Below are positions 60,496 through 64,000 of a stretch of DNA of 64,000 nucleotides, piece after piece (the stretch's first letter is position 1; each line of letters begins with the position of its first letter). The stretch lies in NCBI RefSeq assembly GCF_900215575.1, contig NZ_OBEJ01000001.1, positions 944,588 through 1,008,587 of the forward strand, written 5' to 3'. The position numbers and the translations under genes are program-made. Under the pieces are notes generated by a model. It was given only the letters and a program-made list of their open reading frames with translations, ran no database searches and had not been told where the DNA came from. The DNA is from Natronoarchaeum philippinense (GTDB taxonomy: Archaea > Halobacteriota > Halobacteria > Halobacteriales > Natronoarchaeaceae).

Positions 60496-60515
60496 ACCGG
60501 AAATACGTCACGTCG

Positions 60516-60525
60516 TCATATAACT
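60516..60525 (-). promoter_or_regulatory. TATA element of the membrane microprotein gene
   Basis: On the minus strand the run GTTATATGA is centred about 25 bases before the ATG at 60495, as expected for a leaderless haloarchaeal transcript. Confidence 0.5.
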
Positions 60526-60631
60526 GTTTCCAGTTAGTTTCATGATAAGTTCGTCCCAGCCGGCACGGCGTCAACCTCCCTGTTCCGTGCCGTTGCAACG
60601 TTCAAGTTCGGAGGCCTCGCTAGACGAACAC

Positions 60632-61015
60632 ATGGGAGCGTCTAGCGACGATGCACTGGCCGACGAACTCGTCAGCGCCTGCCGGACGACGATCGGAGAC
60701 TCGATGCGGAGTATCACCTACTTCACGGTCGAGGACTACGAGCAGGTCTACATCCGGAGCGACCTCGAACGCGACGCCGAACTGGATCGGTTCGTCGCCA
60801 ACGAGCGCCTCGGATTTACGTCCCAGCAGACCTACGGTGACTCCGAACTGGGCGCTTACGAGTTCACGATCCGGGCGTTCGACCGGGGGTACGTCACGCG
60901 CGTCATCGTCGGCGATCGCGGCGTCTACGTGACGACCGACAAGATTCACATGGACGAGTTCGAAGAACTCGCAACAGCGGTGCGGGGGGTGTTGCGTGAG
61001 CATCGCAGTGACTGA
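60632..61015 (+). CDS. Conserved haloarchaeal protein (DUF7522-like)
   Basis: A 127-residue soluble protein. The N-terminal helix DDALADELVSACRTTIGDS and the strands RSITYFTVEDYEQVYIRSDL and TRVIVGDRGVYVTTD resemble the small haloarchaeal DUF7522 family, which lacks known function and may be a sensor-like alpha/beta domain. ATG 60632 is chosen over an ATG 30 codons upstream because the preceding residues look untranslated. It is the last host-like gene before the integrative-element boundary. Confidence 0.7.
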   Translation: MGASSDDALADELVSACRTTIGDSMRSITYFTVEDYEQVYIRSDLERDAELDRFVANERLGFTSQQTYGDSELGAYEFTIRAFDRGYVTRVIVGDRGVYVTTDKIHMDEFEELATAVRGVLREHRSD

Positions 61016-61137
61016 TCACCTGCTGGCGCGCTGCTGTGAGTTTGGAACGTAACTGAGGAAGTGGGGTCGGAGGGAGTATGAACCGCGAGGACGTCGCTTC
61101 GCTCGACCTCTGGGCTCAAACCTCCCGGCGTGACGGA

Positions 61138-61167
61138 TTTGTCGCTCGCGAAGTAGCTCGCGACAAA
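61138..61167. repeat. Hairpin in att module 1
   Basis: TTTGTCGC (61138-61145) and GCGACAAA (61160-61167) are perfect 8-bp arms around a 14-base loop, a few bases before the second tRNA-like core. Confidence 0.75.
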
Positions 61168-61179
61168 ATACAGTGGGGT

Positions 61180-61237
61180 CGGAGGGATTTGAACCACGGT
61201 CGCAGCAAGCTGCTCCCTGCTTCAAATCCCGCCTCCG
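61180..61237. repeat. Long dyad in att module 2
   Basis: GGGATTTGAA (61184-61193) and TTCAAATCCC (61221-61230) are perfect 10-bp arms. The outer CGGAG/CTCCG continue the pairing past a small bulge, and an inner GCAGC/GCTGC stem (61202-61213) closes the loop. The dyad begins within the tRNA-like core, so the T-loop sequence is mirrored. Confidence 0.8.
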
Positions 61238-61247
61238 TTAGAATACA

Positions 61248-61273
61248 CGCGGCGCTCGAAGGTGAGCGCCGCG
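61248..61273. repeat. Hairpin in att module 2
   Basis: CGCGGCGCTC (61248-61257) and GAGCGCCGCG (61264-61273) are perfect 10-bp arms with a six-base loop, just before the third tRNA-like core, mirroring the position of the hairpin in module 1. Confidence 0.8.
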
Positions 61274-61360
61274 AGAAGTTAGTGGGGTCGGAGGGATTTG
61301 CGCTAGTCGGGTACAGCGTGGTCTTAGTGCGGTTCAACTGCCGGTTTGCGTTGCTCACTG

Positions 61361-62401
61361 TCATTGTTCTGAATTGTCTCCGAAATCGAGATCCTGAACG
61401 TACTTGCGTCGTCGTTTCTCCATCCGCTCGACCGCGCTCGCCTTGTCGTAGTGACGCTCGATCACGTCCGGGCTCGCGTTCACGCGCTCGGCCGTGACCT
61501 CCATCGGAATGCCGCGATCGCGGTGCCAGGTGATCGAGCCGGTCCGAACCTGATGTGGCGACCGCGATGATGGGCACTGACTCGCCTTGTTCCGGTGCGG
61601 GTACTCGCAGGTCGGTCGCGTCTCGCCGTGCGGACACTCTTGGTGAAGACACGGCTGGGTTGCGAGGTAGCACCACGAGCGGATCGTCGACGCCGACGGC
61701 CGGCCTTGCCGACACGAAAACAACGGCTGGCGACCGTGGTCGTCGCGCTTCTCCCAGCGGTCCCGCTCGATATACGCGTCGAGGACATCGCACACCGTCT
61801 CGGGAATGCTGACCGGGCGCTCGCCGTCCTCGTCGTTCTTCAGCCCGGTCCCCGTCTCGGGGCGGTGCTTGAAGTCGAGGAACTGCCGATCGGGATAGTA
61901 GTCCTCGAGGTCGAGCGTTCGGATGCCGCTCAGTCGAGCGCCCGTGTTCCACAGCACCTCGAGGAGGGCGTGGTGGTTCGTCGCGTAGACTCCCGGATCG
62001 TTGCGGTAGTACTCCAGCAGCGCCTGAGCGTCCTCCGCGGCGAGCTTCGTGTCGCTCGTCTCCTCGGCGCGCGAGAGGCTCGGGATGTCGACCTTCTCCG
62101 GCAGATCCTCGTCGACGGCGTCGATCCGAGCGCAGTAGTCGAGCAGCTGCTTCACCGCGACCATCTTGCCCTTCACCGTCACCGGCTCGTCGCCCATCGA
62201 CTGCCGATCGCGCTTGAACTGGTCGATGGTCCAGCCGGAGATCTCGCTGACCTGCTCGACATCGTGCTCCTCGCACCACTCGACGAACTGCGTGAGCCGG
62301 TATCCATAGCTCCGGATCGTGTGGTCCGAAGAGTCCGCCCGGAGGTCGTCGAGGTAGTACTCGCGCGCCTCCGCGGGCGTCAGGTCATCGGGAGCCTGCA
62401 T
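61361..62401 (-). CDS. Tyrosine-type site-specific integrase
   Basis: A 346-residue recombinase. Residues 1-110 form the SAM-like core-binding domain (DHTIRSYGYRLTQFVEWCEE). The catalytic domain has Arg156 in NTGARLSGIRTLDL, the HxxR pair His283/Arg286 in SPHQVRTG, a W-H at 292-293 and the nucleophile Tyr318 in VIERHYDKAS. A Cys/His-rich insert (about 251-276, CLHQECPHGETRPTCEYPH) is typical of haloarchaeal integrases and may bind zinc. It lies beside the att array and is the last gene of a leftward cascade, overlapping the previous gene by 17 bases. It catalyses integration and excision of the element. Confidence 0.95.
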   Translation of the reverse strand: MQAPDDLTPAEAREYYLDDLRADSSDHTIRSYGYRLTQFVEWCEEHDVEQVSEISGWTIDQFKRDRQSMGDEPVTVKGKMVAVKQLLDYCARIDAVDEDLPEKVDIPSLSRAEETSDTKLAAEDAQALLEYYRNDPGVYATNHHALLEVLWNTGARLSGIRTLDLEDYYPDRQFLDFKHRPETGTGLKNDEDGERPVSIPETVCDVLDAYIERDRWEKRDDHGRQPLFSCRQGRPSASTIRSWCYLATQPCLHQECPHGETRPTCEYPHRNKASQCPSSRSPHQVRTGSITWHRDRGIPMEVTAERVNASPDVIERHYDKASAVERMEKRRRKYVQDLDFGDNSEQ

Positions 62402-62690
62402 CGCCCACCCCCATCGCGTCGAGCGCTCTGCGGAGCATCTCCTCGTCGGCGCCGTTGGCGCGATGTACGAGCTGCCGGATCATCCGATCCGTCTCGGTCG
62501 TGCGCCGCGGCGACGGCCACGGCACGCCCCGGACCTCCACCCAGAGTTCGTACATCGCGCGCTCGTCGAGCGAGATCTCGACGCGACCGCCGTCGTCGGT
62601 GGTCAGCGCGAGCGTGTAGCCCTCCCCGCGCGGACGCGGGCCGTAGGAGATCGCCGGCCGGTCGCCGGTGACGCGGTAGCGATCAGTCAC
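62385..62690 (-). CDS. Integrative-element protein of unknown function
   Basis: A 101-residue protein with a beta-rich first half (RYRVTGDRPAISYGP, GYTLALTTDDGGRVEISL) and helical second half (MIRQLVHRANGADEEMLRRALDAM). It has no cysteines, signal or membrane segment. The start is GTG 62690, overlapping the previous stop by four bases (GTGA). It overlaps the integrase by 17 bases at its end. Position just before the integrase gene suggests a possible directionality or accessory factor, without direct evidence. Confidence 0.7.
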   Translation of the reverse strand: MTDRYRVTGDRPAISYGPRPRGEGYTLALTTDDGGRVEISLDERAMYELWVEVRGVPWPSPRRTTETDRMIRQLVHRANGADEEMLRRALDAMGVGDAGSR

Positions 62691-62887
62691 GGCGATCCCT
62701 CCGACTTCGCAGCGCGTTCGAGGAGCGCCTCGGGGCTCCAGCCGCCGGTACTGTTCGACTCACGGACTACGGGATCGTCGAACATGTTCCCGCAGTCGTT
62801 GCAGTAGAAGTCGTGATCCGACCGAGACCGCGAGGTGATCGCCGACGAATCGCACGCCGGACAGACCTCGATCTCGTCGCCCGTCAC
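62687..62887 (-). CDS. Small zinc-ribbon protein
   Basis: A 66-residue protein with one zinc ribbon: CPAC (residues 9-12) and CNDC (about 29-32) separated by a SRSRSDHDFY strand, then a helical tail with SPEALLERAAKSEG. Such ribbons in element operons often act as transcription or protein-interaction modules. The start GTG 62887 and the end both overlap neighbours by four bases, so it is translationally coupled in the cascade. Confidence 0.75.
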   Translation of the reverse strand: MTGDEIEVCPACDSSAITSRSRSDHDFYCNDCGNMFDDPVVRESNSTGGWSPEALLERAAKSEGSP

Positions 62888-63312
62888 GACTGATCACCCT
62901 GATCTGCCTCCTCAGGATCAATGCGCTTCAACGCTGGCGCGTCCGGTTCGTGCTCGGCGCACGCCCAGTACCGGAAAACTGGGCCAGCGGGCGGTTCAAG
63001 GCCCTCAAATTGTGCGACTGCCGGGACGCATTCGCCTCGATGCTCACGGTGGTCACACGTCGGGTAATCAGCACCGTTCTCGACAGTGCCGCCGTCGGGA
63101 AGCACCTCGTTGTCGTCCTTGAGCGGTGGATCCTCGTTGCGCAAGTCGACGACCTCCGACCGGTCCCACGACGATTGCTCTCGGCGCTGGTCGCGGCAGG
63201 TGACACAGCTAACCGTGTTCCGGCTGATTCGGATCGCGTGATGACCACGGGGACAGACCAACGGATCGATCGTATGCTCGGCGCTGACATCGAAGTCCGA
63301 GTCAATGCTCAT
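62884..63312 (-). CDS. Cys/His-rich element protein of unknown function
   Basis: A 142-residue acidic protein. One Cys set lies in the N-terminal half (PLVCPRGHHAIR with SCVTCRDQRR, about 19-42) and further Cys/His residues lie in the second half (PTCDHREHRGEC and WACAEHEPD), suggesting two zinc sites. No known family is recognised. ATG 63312 overlaps the microprotein frame by 11 bases. It is part of the leftward element operon. Confidence 0.72.
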   Translation of the reverse strand: MSIDSDFDVSAEHTIDPLVCPRGHHAIRISRNTVSCVTCRDQRREQSSWDRSEVVDLRNEDPPLKDDNEVLPDGGTVENGADYPTCDHREHRGECVPAVAQFEGLEPPAGPVFRYWACAEHEPDAPALKRIDPEEADQGDQS

Positions 63313-63409
63313 CGTTGCCCTCCATGTTCTCCAGCAGTCGATCGGCCTCGTGGCGGGGAATCGAGAGACGTTCGGCGAGTTCGACGACGCGCTCGTCTCG
63401 CTCGCTCAC
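63302..63409 (-). CDS. 35-residue helical microprotein
   Basis: GTG 63409 overlaps the regulator's stop by four bases (GTGA), and the frame runs 35 codons to TGA, overlapping the next gene by 11 bases. The peptide starts SERDERVVELAERL and continues SIPRHEADRLLENM, two short charged helices with a break at SIP, like a small helix-turn-helix or an oligomerisation element. The tight coupling on both sides is the main support. Function is unknown. Confidence 0.65.
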   Translation of the reverse strand: MSERDERVVELAERLSIPRHEADRLLENMEGNDEH

Positions 63410-63873
63410 GCTTCGAGCACCTCGTTCAGGGCGGCCGCGAGATCTCGAAGGACCTTCCGGCCGCGGGCTGTCAGCTCGTAGCTGTTTGTACGCTGGTCCA
63501 GCATCCCCTTTTCGACCAGCCCGATCTCGACCAACTCGTCGAGGTTCGGGTACAGTCGGCCGTGGTGGATCTCCTCGCCGTACTCGTCCTCGATGTGATT
63601 CTTGATTTCGAGTCCGTACGGCGGCTCGTCTTGGGACTGCTCGACGGACGCGATCGCCTCCAGGAGGTCGCGCTGGAAGCCAGTCAGATCGGTCCGGGTG
63701 ATCTTGATGATCCCGCCGTCAGGCGCGACCGTCGGACTGCAGTCGTGGTCGGCCAGCTCGCCCAGCGTCTCGAACGGCGTCGAGCAGAGGTCGCAGTAGT
63801 GCGCGTCGCCCTCGAGGAACGCGGCGCGATCGGAGTCGGTACTCGGTCGGTCGGCTGTGGTGTCATCGGTCAT
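63406..63873 (-). CDS. C2H2 zinc-finger/PadR-type transcriptional regulator
   Basis: A 155-residue regulator. Residues 21-40 form a single C2H2-like finger (CDLCSTPFETLGELADHDC, with the last ligand Cys instead of His). Residues about 55-150 form a PadR-like winged helix: FQRDLLEAIASVEQ, PYGLEIKNHIEDEYGEEIHHGRLYPNLDEL and the wing SYELTARGRKVL. PadR proteins are repressors; the finger may add DNA or protein contact. ATG 63873 is chosen; an open frame extends upstream to 63957 without domain support. It heads the element's leftward operon and probably controls the integrase. Confidence 0.85.
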   Translation of the reverse strand: MTDDTTADRPSTDSDRAAFLEGDAHYCDLCSTPFETLGELADHDCSPTVAPDGGIIKITRTDLTGFQRDLLEAIASVEQSQDEPPYGLEIKNHIEDEYGEEIHHGRLYPNLDELVEIGLVEKGMLDQRTNSYELTARGRKVLRDLAAALNEVLEA

Positions 63874-63940
63874 AGTTGTCTGGGATCTGTGTTCTGAGCG
63901 AGACGCTACGGTACAAAAACTCGTTTTCAAGGCCGGAGTG

Positions 63941-63960
63941 GAAGTGAAACTGGTCACTTC
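63941..63960. promoter_or_regulatory. 20-bp dyad upstream of the PadR-type gene
   Basis: GAAGTGA (63941-63947) and TCACTTC (63954-63960) are perfect 7-bp arms with a six-base spacer, about 70 bases upstream of the regulator start and just beyond an AT-rich TATA candidate (about 63910-63920). It is a candidate autoregulatory operator of the element operon. The last 40 bases of the window show another short dyad (GTCGCA/TGCGAC) but no gene. Confidence 0.45.
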
Positions 63961-64000
63961 CGAACACCCGAAAACTGTCGCAGCGTCAGCGTTGCGACGC

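Follow-up and report, generated by a model that had tools for sequence, protein, structure and literature searches.

Palindromic, gene-less modules with tRNA tail copies behind haloarchaeal tRNA genes, and an array of them parted from tRNA-Trp by a provirus-like element

Toward the end of a 64,000-nucleotide stretch of the Natronoarchaeum philippinense genome (the whole of which is hereafter called the window), a tRNA 3' end occurs in three copies, each gap between them holding two hairpins, beside the gene of an SNJ2-family integrase. Copy 3 is the distal attachment site of an element placed by its SNJ2-type integrase at the 3' end of tRNA-Trp, as seen from the anatomy of the locus and from the comparison of occupied and empty loci. 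Copies 2 and 1 each close an older tRNA-tail module that belongs to the host chromosome and was displaced by 25 kb through this integration. Such modules have their place behind tRNA genes, are specific to the tRNA that they follow, are gained or lost exactly at its end, stack outward and carry palindromes of DNA-level character. We consider them most likely to be miniature cassettes that site-specific recombination inserts at tRNA ends. The complete reading, with copy 3 as the att site of an SNJ2-type provirus, copies 2 and 1 as displaced older modules and the modules at large as cassettes moved by site-specific recombination, is the one we favour with moderate confidence.

A repeat search confirmed the layout given in the original prediction, namely three tRNA-end cores spaced 112 and 109 nucleotides apart, two hairpins per gap and a tyrosine integrase gene beside them. 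The 20-nt direct repeats lie at 61060–61079 (85% identity) and at 61172–61191 and 61281–61300, the latter two being identical to each other. Read on the minus strand, the copies run ...TTCAAATCCCTCCGACCCCACT, corresponding to the T-arm and the acceptor 3' strand of a tRNA. The window contains the exact 14-mer TGGGGTCGGAGGGA at three places, all within the array. Given that a window search permitting two mismatches reached three matches in 3 of 100 shuffles, which is rare but possible by chance, we judge significance by how the copies cluster and by their exact match to a tRNA. All features of the array are on the minus strand. Core copy 3 (61281–61300), the attR of the element, has 20 bp in common with the tRNA-Trp 3' end. 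From it the proximal module (61173–61280) runs toward copy 2. Its hairpin A (61248–61273) consists of perfect 10-bp arms (61248–61257 and 61264–61273, 100%) around a 6-nt loop, and its hairpin B (61181–61233) sets an inverted T-arm (61215–61233) and the conserved loop CAGGGAGCAGCTTGCTGCGACCGTGG before a T-arm copy (61181–61199), the two arms agreeing at 84%. Core copy 2 (61172–61195), holding 24 nt of the tRNA-Trp 3' end, closes the module. Folded as single-stranded DNA, the proximal module reaches –35.8 kcal/mol compared with –17.3 in shuffles (z = –8.0). The distal module (61085–61171) has a loop of another type, similar to that in the modules of genomes G003 and G005, with hairpin A at 61141–61164 and an inverted T-arm at about 61111–61126. 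Its fold yields a z of only –1.1, and we thus regard it as decayed. Core copy 1 (61060–61084) is a degenerate outermost tRNA-Trp tail with the altered T-loop GTTCATACTCCC, as judged from the repeats and the comparison of tRNA-Trp loci. In each gap, the inner hairpin places an inverted T-arm copy opposite the tail copy.

Genome search located the intact tRNA whose 3' end matches the cores, as the original prediction had expected. This tRNA-Trp(CCA) contains an intron, stands 25.2 kb rightward of the array and has 20–24 nt in common with the copies. With up to three mismatches, the 22-mer TGGGGTCGGAGGGATTTGAACC occurs at three places only in the whole genome, namely copy 2, copy 3 and the tRNA-Trp end (G000:C1:1030984, G000 being the window genome). 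ARAGORN reported no tRNA over the 64-kb window since the intact tRNA-Trp lies outside it, and tRNA-Trp is missing from the RF00005 listing of the genome probably because of its intron. A 20-bp direct repeat, found at 61281 and again 25.2 kb away at the end of the still intact tRNA-Trp, delimits an element of about 25.2 kb. The window contains its part at 61301–64000; the remainder lies past the window's edge and reaches the tRNA-Trp end at G000:C1:1030982. The integrase gene (61361–62401, minus strand, 346 aa; Phage_int_SAM_1, E = 4e-5) encodes a protein 42% identical over 96% to the SNJ2 integrase and 48% identical over 98% to the integrase of the 24.9-kb Haloferax virus LSV-48N. A small ORF (62385–62690, minus strand) overlaps the integrase start in the position of SNJ2 accessory gene 2, and a small zinc-ribbon ORF (62687–62887, minus strand) belongs to the same apparent operon. 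Despite the same position, BLASTP found no similarity of these small ORFs to SNJ2 gp2/gp3. Many SNJ2-like operons are devoid of the accessory Orf2 and Orf3 (reviewed in PMC8371274), so that their absence here does not exclude the SNJ2 type. Among the proteins of the element there are matches of 30% identity to a protein of Halorubrum spindle-shaped virus BLv25, of 28% to a His1 protein, and of 34%, over half the protein's length, to an LSV-48N protein. Given this combination of an SNJ2-type integrase and genes like those of spindle-shaped haloviruses, the element is provirus-like and copy 3 is its distal att site. The integrative element that had been suspected is thus a provirus of about 25 kb between the array and tRNA-Trp. 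A second ORF with a Phage_integrase domain (E = 2e-21; L034:6538–7185) is also present in the element (region G000:C1:1005761–1030982).

Comparison of tRNA-Trp loci revealed what preceded the integration. An intact tRNA-Trp stands directly before the same kind of module in eight genomes of several families (G029, G041, G005, G035, G044, G013, G057 and G012). In G029 it is followed by CACTAACTTTCTCGCGCCGCT, the same as the sequence after copy 3 in the window (CACTAACTTCTCGCGGCGCTC), and the module there is 84% identical to our proximal module. G003 and G005, two genomes of one genus, share module and outer flank, with or without an integrase-bearing insert behind tRNA-Trp. The empty locus of G005 reads tRNA-Trp, module and then TATGAAATAAAAG, whereas in the occupied locus of G003 an integrase-bearing element and then a 14-bp tail copy come between tRNA-Trp and the same module, which is followed by TATGAAATACAAGG. 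It follows that the insertion point of the element is between tRNA-Trp and a module already present, and that the window represents the occupied state with two modules. G001, from the genus of the window genome, has a third, different element at the same place behind tRNA-Trp.

The modules form a genome-wide family. A copy of the tRNA's own tail is found within 400 bp downstream of 28 of 46 tRNA genes in the window genome, 24 of 41 in G001, 27 of 43 in G003 and 23 of 43 in G044; none is found upstream in these four genomes, where this control reached no more than about 100 nt at the shorter loci. Matches to the tails of other isotypes are found downstream in 4%–10% of cases, as expected given that TTCAAATCC is common to tails. 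Up to four tail copies follow in a row, and tRNA-Ser(tga) of G044 is followed by at least five hairpins. Each module is gene-less, about 110–160 bp long and built on one of two plans. In type I, the usual plan, followed by both modules of the window, hairpin A comes before an inverted T-arm, a loop and a 20–25-nt tail copy, the loop being of one of several types that modules share; type II ends in the last 13–15 nt of the tRNA only and has an inverted acceptor. The stretch common to the att sites of four integrated elements (20, 16, 14 and 13 bp) is similar, being these last nucleotides of the tRNA as well. In two cases, a type II unit apparently sits within a type I tail copy and splits its T-stem (L063, Pro-cgg; L006, Gly-ccc). 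Six tRNAs (Lys-ctt, Arg-tcg, Cys-gca, Leu-cag, Ser-gct and Thr-ggt) are free of modules in all or most of G000, G001, G003 and G044, a shared lack which may reflect transcription context or avoidance.

The arms and tail copies of a module follow its host tRNA. Most downstream tail copies are preceded by an inverted T-arm matched to that tRNA: the arm scores at least 9 in 79 of the 102 tRNAs with tail copies, and its mean fit over these 102 is 9.5 to the own tRNA versus 7.2 to others. Unusual T-loops are followed as well, as in Gly-ccc (CCGGGAATTGAAC), Val-tac (GGTTCGAACC) and His (GCGAGAATTGAAC). Where orthologues differ, tail copies agree with the tRNA of their own genome in 287 comparisons against 19, with 14 ties, these comparisons not being independent events. 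The loops are common to different tRNAs and families at 90%–95% identity, and hairpin B of the proximal module recurs at 95% behind tRNA-Thr(cgt) of the same genome. In Trp, Phe, Ile, Val and Tyr modules from several genera, tail copies often carry one additional base at the same place of the T-loop (GTTCACAATCC versus GTTCAAATCC). In such copies (L004, L013 and L023, and the tRNA-Trp loci L037, L039, L040, L043 and L053) the inverted arm keeps its fit to the true tRNA, so that a single bulge results.

The search of other haloarchaeal genomes that had been suggested as a check showed that the module recurs. The hairpin GGATTTGAA-N20-50-GTTCAAATCC occurs in 81 of 117 Halobacteriales genomes, representing 41 of 48 genera, whereas the reversed control pattern occurs in none of the 117; the hairpin itself is absent from all 164 other genomes of the phylum. 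A looser hairpin-B pattern marks 67 distinct places in four genomes, of which 65 are within about 560 nt behind a tRNA; the chance expectation is about 1% of the genome. At the remaining two, the window array and one place in G044, an integrase-bearing element of 25 and 55 kb, respectively, lies between the hairpin and its tRNA. What had been named as speaking against an att array was the lack of any tRNA with this 3' end together with a recurrence of the modules at random sites unlinked to integrases. The outcome is divided. Most modules are indeed without an integrase beside them, yet they stand always at tRNA ends and never at random sites, and the tRNA with this 3' end exists. Two hairpins that seemed to be without a tRNA were rejected as such: G003:14839 stands behind tRNA-Gln(ctg), and G044:1221367 behind an integrase-bearing element, 54.8 kb from tRNA-Arg(tcg). 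In the latter case, a 54.8-kb stretch (G044:C1:1166485, at tRNA-Arg(tcg), to 1221318) with an integrase-like gene at its far end parts the tRNA from its module, as in the window. Beyond the displaced Arg module (G044:C1:1221318–1221470, L202) lies another hairpin A (TTTTCCGACGAGTGTCAGCGAGTCG) that has no hairpin B; several arrays end in similarly truncated units.

Pairs of genomes capture modules present at a tRNA in one and absent in the other, with exact junctions at the tRNA 3' end. Exact differences that start at the tRNA end amount to +112 at Phe (G001), +154 at Ser-cga (G000), +296 at Ser-tga, comprising two modules (G001), +109 at Pro-tgg (G003) and +154 at Ala-ggc (G044). Val-gac of G001 has gained about 141 on the same reading, its site in G000 being empty. 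The extra module adjoins the tRNA and the older shared module, if any, is located further out. Judged from genome pairs alone, gain of a module is a simpler reading than precise loss. The serial insertion suggested by the original prediction therefore holds for the modules, which accumulate by exact gains at the tRNA end.

These observations enable us to propose a putative model. Gene-less cassettes of about 110–160 bp would move by site-specific recombination at the tRNA tail, and the mover would probably be a tyrosine recombinase of the kind that targets tRNA tails. Hairpin B, with its inverted T-arm facing the tail copy, could be a DNA structure or a double binding site used in this recombination, and repair or copying inside its palindrome may keep the arm matched to the host tRNA. 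A search of viral contigs with one exact degenerate module pattern gave no match to a free form, and no recombinase gene was seen to travel with the modules. The ends of the four integrated elements are devoid of the inverted T-arm, making the link between their integrases and the modules an indirect one. A bolder version, which we put forward tentatively, holds that haloarchaeal tRNA genes serve a cassette system as platforms, the recombination sites being folded DNA. A recombinase that reads the palindrome of T-arm and inverted copy would add gene-less cassettes, and now and then a large element, at the tail, and the cassette arm would be rewritten for each new host tRNA.

Local replication errors, i.e. 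template switching and tandem duplication at palindromic tRNA ends without any recombinase, are a less likely source of the modules. They would agree with arms that match the local tRNA and with stem mismatches free of strand preference; moreover, near-identical tandem units at Ser-tga of G044 and Arg-tct of G003 indicate that plain tandem duplication happens as well. However, the loops shared at 90%–95% by different tRNAs and families imply that material moves between loci, and complete modules have appeared at previously empty tRNAs such as Val-gac.

It is also rather unlikely that the modules act as transcripts, being tRNA trailers that cleavage at both the tRNA end and the tail copy turns into discrete small RNAs or decoys of tRNA-processing enzymes, as proposed for the rtT RNA of E. 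coli tyrT. The hairpins are strong, with 275 stems compared with about 59 in shuffles, the loop types recur across tRNAs and genera, and to RNase Z the tail copy would presumably resemble a tRNA end. RNA structures tolerate G.T pairs but not A.C. We thus counted both mismatch types by one blind method in module stems and in the tRNA genes of the same genomes. The module stems contain 43 G.T and 41 A.C mismatches, whereas the tRNA genes contain 34 and 2 (acceptor stems 30 and 0). Given the near equality in the modules, their palindromes look made or kept at the DNA level; the test does not support an RNA structure, and any RNA role would be weak or strictly Watson–Crick. In addition, the presence and number of modules at the same tRNA vary between species of one genus, and no Rfam family matches them.

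Archaeal viruses and plasmids classically integrate at tRNA 3' ends, and it is routine to interpret a tail copy behind a tRNA as the scar of such an element. We consider it improbable that each module is such a remnant, left by a large tRNA-targeting element that was deleted internally after integration. Outward stacking at tRNA ends is what serial integration would produce, and type II modules share the 13–16-bp att core of the elements; but the modules follow a stereotyped plan of two hairpins with arms matched to the tRNA, on which deletions occurring independently would not converge and which the ends of four real elements do not have. Least probable by far is the designed multi-site att structure of the 25-kb element originally proposed from three cores adjoining the integrase gene, as only copy 3 is att, copies 2 and 1, on the chromosome's side of attR, belong to a tRNA-Trp array of the host, element-free genomes (G005 and G029) have the same modules behind tRNA-Trp, and similar ones stand behind most tRNA genes.

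With regard to known systems, SNJ2-type integrases integrate elements at the 3' ends of haloarchaeal tRNAs (Wang et al. 2018, reviewed in PMC8371274). To this kind the 25-kb element adds an ordinary new member, with a short att core in the tRNA 3' end, a restored tRNA and, as in SNJ2, small ORFs that overlap the integrase start. In contrast, the modules have neither an integrase nor any other gene, measure only about 110–160 bp, follow over half of all tRNA genes and carry an inverted copy of the tRNA T-arm. The SMRs, PATEs and MITEs of Haloquadratum (PMC3119063) resemble them in being haloarchaeal, palindromic, about 80–110 bp long and free of a transposase gene. SMRs, however, have terminal inverted repeats, make no target duplication and target IS605-type elements (PMC3119063), whereas the modules duplicate 13–25 nt of the tRNA and are found at tRNA ends only. 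Rfam returned no family at the gathering threshold in 16 module loci and none at E up to 10 in 60501–61800; the covariance model of rtT RNA (RF00391) matched neither the 16 loci nor 60501–61800. The open full-text literature, which leaves out subscription journals, contains no description of such modules. The E. coli tyrT repeats, known as rtT RNA (RF00391), are likewise units behind a tRNA gene, each holding the last nucleotides of that tRNA. They are confined to one enterobacterial operon, whereas the modules follow most tRNA genes of an archaeal order, match no Rfam family and, by the mismatch test, speak against an RNA structure. Integron cassette arrays grow beside a fixed platform site, and their units end in a palindromic attC with arms in which it is the fold, not the sequence, that is conserved. 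The modules likewise grow beside a fixed platform, here the tRNA, and have palindromic unit ends with fold-conserved arms; they differ in carrying no genes and in that the site sequence is that of the tRNA. In the arrays read, no integrase lies between the tRNA and the modules, and no integron integrase was seen beside an array. The family raises a testable question, namely how a short palindromic DNA unit copies the direct and inverted sequence of its host tRNA. Compared with these systems, we rate the modules as a new variant of tRNA-end-targeting elements, which may even constitute a platform-and-cassette system of their own.
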